Both the position numbers and the translations under genes were made by a program. From Pseudomonadota bacterium (GTDB taxonomy: Bacteria > Pseudomonadota > Alphaproteobacteria > Acetobacterales > Acetobacteraceae): a stretch of 33,974 nt of DNA. The stretch is taken from NCBI GenBank assembly GCA_021780035.1, contig JAJXZO010000172.1, forward strand, positions 1-33,974, read 5' to 3'. Positions 5,170 through 12,829 of this stretch are shown piece by piece (positions within the stretch are counted from its first letter, which is position 1; each line of letters opens with the position of its first letter). Under the pieces are notes generated by a model, which saw only the letters and a list, made by a program, of their open reading frames with translations, did no database searches and was not told the origin of the DNA.

Positions 5170-7521
5170 CTACTGCTCCCGATACCAGGCGGACGCCGTG
5201 CCGTCCCAGCGCACCCGCAGCCCCGTGTAGGCGGCGAGCGTGGCACCGTTCGTCCAGCCGTTCACCGCCGGCGAGAAGGCAAGCGCCGTCACCGCCCCGG
5301 CGTAGTTGTCGAACTGGATGGCCTGCCCGTCCGCCAGCGCCGCCGGCAGCGTCACCGTGGAGGCGCTCACCGTGGCCGTCTGCGTGAAACGCACCAGCGA
5401 CGTGTTCGCCGGCACGCTGTAGGTGCCGCCGAGGGAAACGCGCACGCCGCTGCCGTCGATCAGCGCGCCTTCGGCGACCACCGGCGTTCCGGCGCTTCCA
5501 TTGATGCCAAGCTGCGTCTGGTTGTTCTGCAACAGCACACGGCCGCCCGCCGACGCCAGCGACAGCGAATTGCCGAGCGTCACCGTCACGCCGGAAAGGG
5601 AGCCGTTGGCGATGGTCACGGTCGGCGCCGCGACATAGCCGCCGCCGGCGCCGGTCACGGCGATCGTGTTCACGCGGAACACGTTGGCGGCCAGATCGAC
5701 GGTGAGACCGCTGCCCGCCATCGAGCCGGAAACATTGGTGGTGGGGACGGACGCGGACAGGAAGTCGTCCGCCGGGCAGTCGCCGATCGCGGCGTCCGAG
5801 CCGAGGCCGGTCACCACCCCGCCCGTGCCTACCGATGCCACCTTCAGCGGGATCGGGATCGAACAGCCGGCGTTGAGCTGCACGACGTCGTTCACCGCAT
5901 ACCCCGTCCCGCCGGTGCCAACCGTCTCCGTTCCCCAGAAGCCCCCCGTGTTGATCTGCGCCGTCGCCTGCGAGCCGCCATTGGGAGGAGGCGAAATCGC
6001 GATCGCGGGCAGCGCGCCGCCGAGCAGGGAAGCGTAGGAGGCGCCGGGGTCGACCGTGATGGCCGCCACACTGCCCGTGGCCTGCACGCTCGGCACGTTG
6101 AGCGCCGACGGCAGCGTCACAGCAGAGGAAAAGCCGCCGGAATAGCTGGGCGATCCGGCGACATCGAGCATGCCGAACGGCGTCGTCAGGTTCCACGGAC
6201 CGACCGCGCCGACATAGGCGCTGCCGTCCGCCGACCACGCCGCCGGGTCGAGGAAGACCGTCGCCCCGGAATTGTAGAACTGCGGAATGCGCAGTCTCAG
6301 GCCGTGGATGGTGGCCGACGTCACGCCCGTGTCGAGCGCGAGCACGGTGGCCGGCGTCATCTCGATATGGTTGTCGTAGGTCAGGCCGTTGATGACGGGC
6401 GCGGTCTGCGTGCCGGTCAGCAGGATGTCCTCCGCGAACTTGCCCTCGGCATGGACGTGCCAGACAAGATCGTTCACCGAATCACCGGCACCGTAATAAA
6501 GATCGAAGGCGCCGCCGCCCGTCGATGCCGCCTGCCCGTAGCCGACCACGTAGGAAGATTCGAAGCGCAGGCCGCGCACGTTGGAAGCCCACACCGCGGG
6601 GCCGTAATAGCTGCTGATCGACCCGCTGACAAAAACGCTCTCGTTGAAGGAATCCGGCGTGTCCGGCGTCAGCGCGTCCGCCACGGTCGGGTTCGAGGGG
6701 TTGTAGGTGGCGGCGAAATCCGACGTGATCGGGAAGTGGTTGTCGCCGTCGAGCACAACGCCGTAGGCGGTCGGGCTGTCGGTGCGGTTCTGCAGGAATA
6801 CATCGATGAAGTTGCTGGTTTCCGCCGCCCGGTCGTAGAGCGGCGCGAGCGAGAAGGCGCCGTCCATGTAGACATCGATCATCGACACTTCGCCGGCACC
6901 GCTCCACCCGTTGAGCGGGCGTCCGATCTGGATGCCGACCTTGGGGTTGTTCTGCGCGATGATCTTCACATGCTCGAACGTGACGTTCTGGCTCTCCACG
7001 GCGTCGAGCACGGCCTTGCCGGTGGCATTGCCGACGAGCGTGCTGCCGTTGCCGTTGAAGAGAAGGCCGTTCAGCGCCGTGAGGTTCACCGAGCCGTTCA
7101 GCACGAAGCAGGCGTGTGCCGGCAGGTTGAACTCGCGCGCGTAGCCCTGGTAGCCGGACAGGTTCCGCAGGTAGGTCGCGTAGGCGTTGAACGCCGCGGT
7201 GTCGTCGGTGGCGCAGTCGCCCGCCGCCCCGAAATCCATGACGTTCAGCGTATCACCGGCCAGACTGGCGAGCGTACGGGCGACGGTGCCCCCCGACGCC
7301 GTCACGGTGGTGGTGGAGGCGTTGCCGCCGGCGGATTGCACGGCACCGACGATGCGCGCGTCGTTGCCGGCGGCTGCGGTGCCGGCGGTGGTGCCGTAAA
7401 GCACCGACAGCCGCCCGCCGCTGCTGGTCAGGCCGTTGCCCGGCGGCGTCTGGGGAGAGAGTTGCGCCGCGGCAAGGGCAGGCAGCAGCGCCATGCCCAT
7501 TGCAAGGAACCATCGTTTCAT
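5170..7521 (-). CDS. Secreted right-handed beta-helix / pectate-lyase-superfamily-like protein with phage-tail-like terminal segments
   Basis: Frame 5170..7545; likely start at MKRWFLAMGMALLPALAAAQ (signal peptide). NVMDFGAAGDCATDDTAAFNAYATYL is the classic pectate-lyase-like/GH28-related opening. GTTAGTAAAGNDARIVGA near the N-terminus and ADGQAIQFDNYAGAVTALAFSPAVNGWTNGATLAAYTGLRVRWDGTASAWYREQ at the C-terminus resemble phage tail fibre proteins. Confidence 0.8.
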   Translation of the reverse strand: MKRWFLAMGMALLPALAAAQLSPQTPPGNGLTSSGGRLSVLYGTTAGTAAAGNDARIVGAVQSAGGNASTTTVTASGGTVARTLASLAGDTLNVMDFGAAGDCATDDTAAFNAYATYLRNLSGYQGYAREFNLPAHACFVLNGSVNLTALNGLLFNGNGSTLVGNATGKAVLDAVESQNVTFEHVKIIAQNNPKVGIQIGRPLNGWSGAGEVSMIDVYMDGAFSLAPLYDRAAETSNFIDVFLQNRTDSPTAYGVVLDGDNHFPITSDFAATYNPSNPTVADALTPDTPDSFNESVFVSGSISSYYGPAVWASNVRGLRFESSYVVGYGQAASTGGGAFDLYYGAGDSVNDLVWHVHAEGKFAEDILLTGTQTAPVINGLTYDNHIEMTPATVLALDTGVTSATIHGLRLRIPQFYNSGATVFLDPAAWSADGSAYVGAVGPWNLTTPFGMLDVAGSPSYSGGFSSAVTLPSALNVPSVQATGSVAAITVDPGASYASLLGGALPAIAISPPPNGGSQATAQINTGGFWGTETVGTGGTGYAVNDVVQLNAGCSIPIPLKVASVGTGGVVTGLGSDAAIGDCPADDFLSASVPTTNVSGSMAGSGLTVDLAANVFRVNTIAVTGAGGGYVAAPTVTIANGSLSGVTVTLGNSLSLASAGGRVLLQNNQTQLGINGSAGTPVVAEGALIDGSGVRVSLGGTYSVPANTSLVRFTQTATVSASTVTLPAALADGQAIQFDNYAGAVTALAFSPAVNGWTNGATLAAYTGLRVRWDGTASAWYREQ

Positions 7522-7624
7522 CGCGTTCTCCGAATCCGTCACCACAATATGGACCGGGTCGCCCCGCTGCGCGCCGCGGGCTTCTCGCGGATGGCAAGGA
7601 AGGTGTGCGCGGCCTGCGGACCCT

Positions 7625-10239: not shown

Positions 10240-10980
10240 TCAGCTGTGCTGCTGCATGATGCGCTGGATGGCGCTCTGGTGGCGGTCGGCCTCCGCCTGG
10301 ATGAACTGCGCCACCATCTGGAAGCCGCGCAGGTCGTTCATCATGCGCGTGACCTCCATCGTCGGCTGCACGTCGCTCTTTTCCACCGCGCCCTCGACGA
10401 TCTTCGGGCTGGCCACCGGCCGCGTGGTGGTGGCGGCGGCGTTGAGCAGCCGCCCGCCCTCGGCCTTCAGCTTGTTCGGATCGGCGACGGAAACCACGCC
10501 GATCTTGCCGATCAGCCCGTTCTCGCTCGAGAGCGTGCCGTCTGCGGCGACGCTCAGCATGGTGTCGGCGGTGGTGACCTTGAGCGGCTTGCCGCGGACG
10601 TCGAGCAGGGCGTTGCCCTCTTCGTCCACCACCGTGCCGTTCGCGGCGAGGGCGAAGCGTCCGGCGCGCGTCAGCCTGGGTCCGCGTTTCGTCGATACGG
10701 TGAAATAGCCCGTTCCGGAAAGCGCGAGGTCGAGCGGGTTGCCGGTATGGTCGATCTCGCCGGGCCGGCGCGAACGGTAGGTGGCGCGGTCCTGCGTGTA
10801 GGCGATGACGCCGCTCCCCGGCGGCTCGTTTCCCTGCCGCTGCCACAGCCAGTCGGCGAAGATCGTCCGCTCGGCGCGGAAGCCGGGCGTGTTCATGTTG
10901 GCGACGTTGTTGGCGAGCACGTCGATCGCGCGCGTCTGCGCGACCAGGCGGGAAAGGGCGATCGTGGTGGCGTTGTCCAT
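10240..10980 (-). CDS. flgF: Flagellar basal-body rod protein FlgF
   Basis: MDNATTIALSRLVAQTRAIDVLANNVANMNTPGFRAERTIFADWLW; ORF trimmed from 11157 to the ATG at 10980. Confidence 0.94.
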   Translation of the reverse strand: MDNATTIALSRLVAQTRAIDVLANNVANMNTPGFRAERTIFADWLWQRQGNEPPGSGVIAYTQDRATYRSRRPGEIDHTGNPLDLALSGTGYFTVSTKRGPRLTRAGRFALAANGTVVDEEGNALLDVRGKPLKVTTADTMLSVAADGTLSSENGLIGKIGVVSVADPNKLKAEGGRLLNAAATTTRPVASPKIVEGAVEKSDVQPTMEVTRMMNDLRGFQMVAQFIQAEADRHQSAIQRIMQQHS

Positions 10981-11030
10981 CGCGAGGCTCCCGGGCCGCG
11001 CACGAACGGCGGTCCCTCGCCGCCTGTCGA

Positions 11031-11046
11031 GGCAAGCGCCGTGCCA
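11031..11046 (-). promoter_or_regulatory. Sigma54 (RpoN) -24/-12 promoter for flgF operon
   Basis: Reverse strand CTGGCACGGCGCTTGCC: TGGCAC-N5-TTGCC, near-perfect match to TGGCAC-N5-TTGCA, about 50 bp upstream of the flgF ATG. Confidence 0.75.
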
Positions 11047-11108
11047 GCCTGCCAAACGGCCCGCAGCCGAGGCCCGCCGCGCGCCACCTGGCCTCGGGGC
11101 GGCAGTCG

Positions 11109-11139
11109 CTGCCGGGCGCCCTCGCGCGCCACCCGGCAG
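11109..11139. promoter_or_regulatory. Inverted repeat CTGCCGGG-N15-CCCGGCAG, candidate enhancer-binding-protein site
   Basis: Perfect 8-bp arms between the divergent flgF and fliL starts, about 60-95 bp upstream of the flgF sigma54 element. Confidence 0.45.
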
Positions 11140-11184
11140 GAATGACCGCCTCCTCAAGCGTTCTTTAACCGCCGCCGGCGAGCA

Positions 11185-11200
11185 TGGTTCCGACCGTGCG
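11185..11200 (+). promoter_or_regulatory. Possible sigma54 promoter toward fliL
   Basis: TGGTTC-CGACC-GTGCG keeps GG-N10-GC spacing; about 50 bp before the fliL ATG at 11253. Weaker consensus. Confidence 0.35.
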
Positions 11201-11252
11201 GATGGCCCGCGCGGCGGGGATGGGCGCGACCCATCGGCGTGGAGCGTCGGGC

Positions 11253-11789
11253 ATGGCGGCGGCGGGCACGAAACAGCCGGCGGACACGGAGACGGAGACG
11301 GAAACCCCGCCGCCGGAGCCGCCCGGAAAGAACAGGCGGCGGCGCCTGCTGTTCCTCGCCATCCCCGTGCTGGTCGCCGGCGGGGGCGCCGGGCTGTGGT
11401 TCGGCGGCCCGCTGCCGCGCTGGCTCGGGCTGCGCAAGCCGAGGCCGGCGGCGGCCAACGACGCCAACCCCGCCATGCCGGTGGTGCATTCGCTGGAACT
11501 GCCCGAGATCATCGCCAACCTGAACCCCGGCCCCGGCCAGAACGCCGCATTCATCAAGCTGCAGGCGGTCGTCGAACTGGCCAGCGCGCGCGACGTCGCC
11601 ATCGCCAGGGCGGGGCTGCCCCGGCTGCTCGACCTGTTCCAGACCTACCTGCGCGAGATGCGGCCCGAGGAACTCGCCGGCTCGGCCGGCACCTGGCGCC
11701 TGCGGGAGGAACTGATCGCCCGCGCCAACGTCGCCATCGCTCCGGCCCGGGTGACCGACGTGCTGTTCACGGAGCTTCTGGTGCAATGA
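11253..11789 (+). CDS. fliL: Flagellar basal body-associated protein FliL
   Basis: N-terminal TM (RRRRLLFLAIPVLVAGGGAGLWF); LPEIIANLNPGPGQNAAFIKLQAVVELAS...LLDLFQTYLREMRPEELAGSAGTWRLREELIARANVAIAPARVTDVLFTELLVQ. Start at 11253 preferred over 11184. Confidence 0.93.
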   Translation: MAAAGTKQPADTETETETPPPEPPGKNRRRRLLFLAIPVLVAGGGAGLWFGGPLPRWLGLRKPRPAAANDANPAMPVVHSLELPEIIANLNPGPGQNAAFIKLQAVVELASARDVAIARAGLPRLLDLFQTYLREMRPEELAGSAGTWRLREELIARANVAIAPARVTDVLFTELLVQ

Positions 11790-12829
11790 GCGGCTCGGAC
11801 GCCGATCTCGCCGCCGCCTGGGAGGCGGAGGCCGCCGGCGAGGCGCCGCCGGTGGAAGCGCAGCGGGTGCTGAACCAGGCCGAGATCGACAGCCTGCTCG
11901 GCTTCGACGAAGGCCCCGCCGGCGGCGAGGCCAGCACCGGCATGCAGAAAATCATCAGCTCCGGGCTGGTGAGCTACGAACGCCTGCCGATGCTCGAGAT
12001 CGTCTTCGACCGCCTCGTGCGCATCATGTCCACCAGCCTGCGCAACTTCACCTCCGACAACGTCGAGGTCGGCATCGACAACATCCTCTCGCTCCGCTTC
12101 GGGGACTACCTGAACTCCATCCCGCTGCCGGCGATGCTCGCGGTGTTCAAGGCCGAGGAGTGGGACAACTACGGGCTGATGGTGGTCGATTCCGCCATGA
12201 TCTACTCCATCGTCGATGTCCTGCTCGGCGGCCGGCGCGGCACGGCGGCCATGCGCATCGAGGGCCGGCCCTACACCACCATCGAGCGCACGCTGGTGGA
12301 GCGGCTGATCCAGGTGGTGCTCGCCGATCTCGCCGCCGCCTTCGATCCGCTCTGCCCCGTCACCTTCCGCTTCGAGCGGCTCGAGGTGAACCCGCGCTTC
12401 GCCACCATCAGCCGCCTCTCCAACGCCGCGGTTCTGGCAAGGCTCCGCATCGACATGGAAGACCGTGGCGGGCGGCTGGAACTGCTGCTTCCCTACGCCA
12501 CGCTGGAGCCGGTGCGCGAACTGCTGCTGCAGCAGTTCATGGGCGAGAAGTTCGGCCGCGATTCCATCTGGGAAACCCATCTCGCCGAGGAATTGTGGAG
12601 CACCGACGTCGATCTTTCCGTGGTGCTCGACGAACAGGTGGTGCGGCTGTCCGAGGTGATGGCGCTTACCGTCGGCAGCCGCATCCTTCTCACCTGCGCG
12701 CCGGGGGCGCCGGTGCAGCTCCGCTGCGGCGGCACGGCGCTGTTCGAGGGCAAGGTGGGGCGGCGCAAGAACCGCGTGGCGGTGCGCATCGACCGCGAGG
12801 TGCCACGCGCCGCGGGCGCGGAGCGCTGA
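11786..12829 (+). CDS. fliM: Flagellar motor switch protein FliM
   Basis: VLNQAEIDSLLGFD (CheY-binding motif), LEIVFDRLVRIMSTSLRNFTSDNVEV, LLGGRRGTAAMRIEGRPYTTIERTLVERLI. ATG at 11786 overlaps the fliL stop by 4 bp. Confidence 0.97.
   Translation: MSGSDADLAAAWEAEAAGEAPPVEAQRVLNQAEIDSLLGFDEGPAGGEASTGMQKIISSGLVSYERLPMLEIVFDRLVRIMSTSLRNFTSDNVEVGIDNILSLRFGDYLNSIPLPAMLAVFKAEEWDNYGLMVVDSAMIYSIVDVLLGGRRGTAAMRIEGRPYTTIERTLVERLIQVVLADLAAAFDPLCPVTFRFERLEVNPRFATISRLSNAAVLARLRIDMEDRGGRLELLLPYATLEPVRELLLQQFMGEKFGRDSIWETHLAEELWSTDVDLSVVLDEQVVRLSEVMALTVGSRILLTCAPGAPVQLRCGGTALFEGKVGRRKNRVAVRIDREVPRAAGAER

Follow-up and report, generated by a model that had tools for sequence, protein, structure and literature searches.

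How two divergently transcribed flagellar operons are controlled from a shared intergenic region of 272 bp (10981-11252) is the question raised by this locus. According to the original prediction, both operons would depend on sigma-54 and share one enhancer-binding site, placed at an inverted repeat between the two promoters. The window, i.e. the whole analysed stretch of 33,974 nucleotides, corresponds to contig C49 of a 2.67 Mb assembly that comprises 253 contigs and is 90% complete, and the nearest named relatives of its flgF belong to Acetobacteraceae. On the minus strand, flgF (10240..10980; Pfam Flg_bb_rod, LlgE_F_G_D1 and Flg_bbr_C) is the first gene of flgF-flgG-flgA-flgH, running leftward from 10980. 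On the plus strand, the order fliL-fliM-DUF6468-(MgtE_N-like)-cheY-cheZ runs rightward, with fliL at 11253..11789 (Pfam FliL; start codon uncertain, with further in-frame ATGs at 11202 and 11220) and fliM at 11786..12829 (Pfam FliM and FliMN_C). Pfam matches, including those to CheY-like and CheZ, bear out the gene calls of flgFGAH and fliL-cheZ, and the letters of all strings named in the prediction are found at their positions. In Caulobacter, too, flgF and fliL are divergent. Downstream of flgH, a 791-aa ORF (5170-7545, minus strand) has coding-like base composition and gave no Pfam or NCBIfam match. We consider it likely that the 272 bp constitute an asymmetric divergent flagellar control region, in which the two arms follow different rules.

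Two sets of orthologous flgF/fliL intergenics were compared. The family set comprised 29 of them, the window included, and the set from named records comprised 77, of which 75 were short enough for analysis, giving 76 together with the window. An unsupervised count of gapped words in the 75 intergenics, relative to dinucleotide shuffles, returned three non-coding motifs. They match a sigma-54 element (GCAA-N7-GCCA, in 62/75), a 19-bp dyad CCCGGCA-N5-TGCCGGG (its core GGCA-N5-TGCC being present in 63/75, with 2.0 expected), and a CtrA-type promoter (GCAA-N7-TTAA with a downstream G.CA). Alignment of the orthologues kept the minus-strand -24/-12 element and also the inverted repeat, the latter in the form of two dyads, but not the plus-strand element of the original prediction. 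Judging from these comparisons, the combination of one sigma-54 promoter, two enhancer-type sites and one CtrA-type promoter is kept across much of the bacterial family. All elements are present, for example, in the cultured relative Rhodopila globiformis (L160).

The minus-strand sigma-54 element proposed for flgF proved genuine. TGGCACGGCGCTTGCC (11031..11046, minus strand) is an exact consensus, with the -24 GG at 11045-11044 and the -12 GC at 11033-11032, the latter 52 bp from the flgF ATG as claimed, and the transcription start is predicted at about 11020. The exact TGGCACG-N4-TTGC occurs once in the window and 8 times in the 2.67 Mb genome, TGGCACGGCGCTTGCC included. A strong element on the same strand was present in 29/29 family loci, scoring 12.7-14.4 of 14.4 and located no more than about 100 bp away from the flgF ATG, and in 70/76 intergenics of the named set with the window, vs 5.9% of shuffles. 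Both rpoN (Sigma54_DBD, E 7.4e-65) and three genes for enhancer-binding proteins, on which the original prediction depended, were found in the genome. flgF is thus read from a predicted sigma-54 promoter. Three further loci, L193, L228 (G001) and L241 (G056), have divergent flgF and fliL, yet their intergenics hold neither a sigma-54 element nor dyads. Outside flagellar genes, exact sigma-54 elements were located 36-71 bp before long ORFs of the source genome in L011 (C206:1949), L012 (C231:507) and L013 (C240:1228), two of which begin like exported substrate-binding proteins, and these loci are candidates for a non-flagellar sigma-54 regulon.

On the fliL side, the conserved element is a CtrA-type box, TCAA-N7-TTAAC (11154..11169, plus strand), followed by a conserved A at 11181, the -11 position. 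The right half of the box is exact and the left half, TCAA, has 1 mismatch to TTAA, the geometry being taken from the alignment, in which the consensus reads [T/G]CAA-N7-TTAAC, then G..A. The box with the A at -11 is kept in about 70/76 loci, the A itself in 66/70. In CtrA-activated flagellar promoters of R. sphaeroides, fliL2 included, transcription starts 23-24 nt after the CtrA site and the A at -11 is invariant (PMC6180460); this spacing, applied to the window, places the predicted fliL start at 11192-11193. Moreover, in 27/69 relatives an in-frame fliL ATG is found 23-25 nt after TTAA, which is the predicted +1, so that the fliL mRNA is probably leaderless in these relatives. Examples of such loci are L177, L161, L155, L139 and L197, and they represent the Rhodopila/Acidisphaera group. 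The ctrA gene itself is present in the genome (NF045991, 366 bits vs a cut-off of 350).

Between the two promoters lies the perfect 8-bp inverted repeat CTGCCGGG-N15-CCCGGCAG (11109-11139), for which a match with up to 2 mismatches to the pattern appeared in 9/100 whole-window shuffles; in the window, the repeat is less common than chance would predict. It does not form a unit of its own, since it combines the right half of one 19-bp dyad with the left half of another. Dyad 1, GGCGGCAGTCGCTGCCGGG (11098..11116), agrees with CCCGGCA-N5-TGCCGGG at 12/14 positions and is a probable FlbD site, and dyad 2, CCCGGCAGGAATGACCGCC (11132..11150), is degenerate (10/14), has a perfect left half and ends 3 bp before the CtrA box. 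In the window the two are 34 bp apart. A dyad of at least 11/14 is found in 66/76 orthologues vs 10% of shuffles, and one of at least 12/14 in 52/76 vs 1.4%. The pair with the spacing of the window recurs in L133, L135, L138, L143, L191 and L192, and also in L144. In the first six of these loci, about 60 and 93 bp separate the two dyads from the sigma-54 element, and their distances to TTAA are 56-58 and 24 bp. Among relatives in general, the spacing varies, mostly between 14-21 or 32-34 bp, whereas the dyads themselves are kept, and the 8-bp repeat was therefore rejected as a single binding site. The repeat is present and conserved in the form of dyads, and an enhancer-type element between the operons is borne out by them, but the repeat is not the binding unit. 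A pair of dyads 34 bp apart was also detected on C32 (L212/L214), inside a long open frame and without a sigma-54 site, and was discarded as a product of coding composition.

In regard to the relation of the dyads to the promoters, phasing was evaluated using one locus per similarity cluster (60 clusters), by which kinship is only partly removed. The best dyad and the sigma-54 element are separated by distances that group into bins about 11 bp apart, with R = 0.54 at period 11 and the 99.9% point of random placement at 0.43. For the flgF-proximal dyad alone, periodicity relative to the sigma-54 element was not period-specific, and for this reason only the best-dyad test is relied on for sigma-54 phasing. 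The fliL-side dyad is phased with the CtrA box as well (R = 0.51, 99.9% point 0.41). Furthermore, in L132 and L144 the distance from the dyads to the sigma-54 element is shifted while that to the CtrA box is unchanged, an argument for a role of the dyads at fliL as well. Because the dyads are in helical phase with both promoters, one shared element for both operons, as originally proposed, is plausible, although not with a single 8-bp repeat as the site. Alternatively, the dyads could serve flgF only; common descent would then explain their fixed distance to the CtrA box, and CtrA alone would control fliL. Dyads and a sigma-54 element are enough to explain flgF, and the relatives are not independent of each other, so we regard this as a substantial possibility that falls somewhat short of an even chance, the phasing with the CtrA box and the behaviour of L132 and L144 speaking against it.

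Concerning the protein that binds the dyads in this shared element, evidence comes from their distribution over other flagellar promoters. In the source genome, an exact sigma-54 site is also present at flgI, which adjoins fliX (PF10768 over the cut-off, contig C85), and a 12/14 dyad lies upstream of this site. In the congener G076, five perfect dyads occur genome-wide, with about 0.35 expected by our estimate from base composition, and three of the five are found upstream of sigma-54-like elements, those of flgF, flgI and flgE. The presence of dyads before the sigma-54 promoters of flgI in both genomes, and of flgE in the congener, points to FlbD; in Caulobacter, the genes for rod, ring and hook belong to the FlbD/RpoN class (PMC6180460, PMC7064773). 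A FlbD with a degenerate receiver is encoded in G076 and in most motif-bearing relatives examined. In the source genome, FlbD was not found in the incomplete, 90% complete assembly. FlhA was not found either, and since flbD of G076 is located between a fliN-like gene and flhA (names from reading translations), an assembly gap would be the simplest reading of the missing flbD. The FlbD-type site of the original prediction can be retained to the extent that FlbD is most likely the binder and the best candidate, even though its gene was not found in this assembly. Also in G076, a GTG-start 104-aa ORF in L215 (1501-2000; G076:C27:15166) has upstream of it a perfect dyad and, after the dyad, a strong sigma-54 element. 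This ORF had no Pfam or NCBIfam match and is a candidate member of the FlbD regulon.

The same anatomy could be served by a different protein, and the three enhancer-binding proteins of the assembly, namely an NtrC-like one, an NtrX-like one (names by our reading) and a kinase-linked one, would be available for this role. The last of them, in L003 (G000:C132:1-2135), has an intact receiver, is located directly behind a histidine kinase gene and is cut by the contig end; L098, L103 and L107 share an enhancer-binding protein of this type. These genes were found in the assembly and flbD was not. However, the dyads mark rod, ring and hook promoters, as in the Caulobacter FlbD class, the FlbD partner FliX is present, and FlbD is encoded in most of the motif-bearing relatives examined, all of which make another binder rather improbable. 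The 11 family genomes without full-length FlbD (G009, G022, G025, G037, G042, G048, G054, G060, G061, G079 and G085) have no such region before fliL, but flgF was not found beside fliL in them, and the co-occurrence of FlbD and the motifs is therefore only suggestive. It seems that genomes which lost FlbD also had their flagellar genes rearranged. Three other genomes, G001, G056 and G086, bear FlbD and have divergent flgF and fliL, and the motifs are absent from their intergenics.

That both operons are sigma-54 dependent, with one shared enhancer-binding site at the 8-bp inverted repeat, is very unlikely. The plus-strand element TGGTTC-N5-GTGCG (11185..11200) does contain GG-N10-GC at 11186-11199, its -12 is about 55 bp from the ATG at 11253 as claimed, and the repeat lies between the two elements. 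However, it scores 10.5 of 14.4, which is weak and unremarkable in GC-rich sequence, and its position includes the predicted fliL start. Only 3/76 intergenics have a plus-strand element as strong as the minus-strand one, the plus-strand scores being at or below background, and a search of the 76 for a plus-strand -24/-12 element gave no conserved offset, while the CtrA-type box is conserved base by base in the same place. In addition, with the ATG at the predicted +1 of the CtrA-type promoter, the 27/69 relatives lack the space for a sigma-54 promoter further downstream, and the arms of the repeat are parts of two different dyads. A plus-strand sigma-54 promoter of fliL was thus rejected, and the sequence evidence, which lends no support to sigma-54 dependence of the fliL arm, favours a CtrA-type promoter instead. 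Finally, chance motifs in GC-rich DNA have a negligible probability, for although the genome holds many dyads with up to 2 mismatches (89 vs 30 for the reversed pattern), conservation and phasing across the 60 similarity clusters refute this reading both for the promoter of flgF and for the class of dyads.

With the elements, their conservation and phasing, and the genes for RpoN, FliX and CtrA all observed in the sequence and its comparison, we think there is a good probability that FlbD/FliX-sigma54 activates flgFGAH and CtrA activates fliL-fliM, and that the shared dyads probably act on fliL too. CtrA would activate a sigma-70-type promoter (box 11154-11169, start about 11192) for fliL-fliM and the genes behind. 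An enhancer-binding protein at both dyads, most likely FlbD under FliX, would activate the sigma-54 promoter of flgFGAH. In the order that we infer, CtrA would first turn on the switch genes and FlbD would later turn on flgF. Bound FlbD would probably modulate fliL too, most likely by repression, given that dyad 2 lies next to the CtrA box and in helical register with it. More tentatively, and with somewhat less confidence than would be needed to prefer it, FlbD in register with both promoters could activate flgF and simultaneously shut off CtrA-driven fliL-fliM, acting as a two-sided switch.

Several known systems resemble this region. It shares with the Caulobacter FlbD/FliX-sigma54 class III promoters with ftr sites the use of sigma-54 for rod and ring genes, enhancer-type sites upstream, a fliX that neighbours flgI and its sigma-54 promoter and, in relatives of the source genome, a degenerate-receiver FlbD next to fliN. 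It differs in that the dyads, as putative FlbD sites, are arranged in helically phased pairs which a CtrA-type promoter shares, and in that flbD was not found in this assembly. Likewise, the fliL arm resembles CtrA-activated class II promoters (Caulobacter; R. sphaeroides fliL2p, PMC6180460) in its TTAA-N7-TTAA-like box, the start 23-24 nt downstream, the A at -11 and fliL as the target, but the left half here is TCAA or GCAA, not TTAA. R. sphaeroides lacks FlbD and has a single CtrA site for two CtrA promoters (PMC6180460), whereas here the opposite promoter is a sigma-54 one. A model for possible fliL repression is provided by Caulobacter fliF, an early CtrA-dependent promoter repressed by FlbD through ftr4 (PMC3930126). 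There, too, an enhancer-type site is near a CtrA-dependent early flagellar promoter, but in the present region such sites would have a second role as activators of the opposite operon. A literature search found no paper on the flgF/fliL control region in Acetobacteraceae, and one for FlbD ChIP-seq returned mainly fungal FlbD.

The region is thus a well-preserved relative of the known Caulobacter-style flagellar control and not a new type of system, with clearer architecture and spacing rules than had been proposed. It extends the Caulobacter-type hierarchy from CtrA to FlbD/FliX-sigma54, with base-level anatomy, to the mostly uncultured Acetobacteraceae, and the enhancer consensus CCCGGCA-N5-TGCCGGG, together with the helical spacing rules, can be used for finding regulons in genomes. 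It can be tested directly whether late flagellar genes are activated and early ones repressed in a coupled manner through one enhancer site, and if the two-sided switch is true, one binding event would pass expression from the switch genes to the rod and ring genes across the family.
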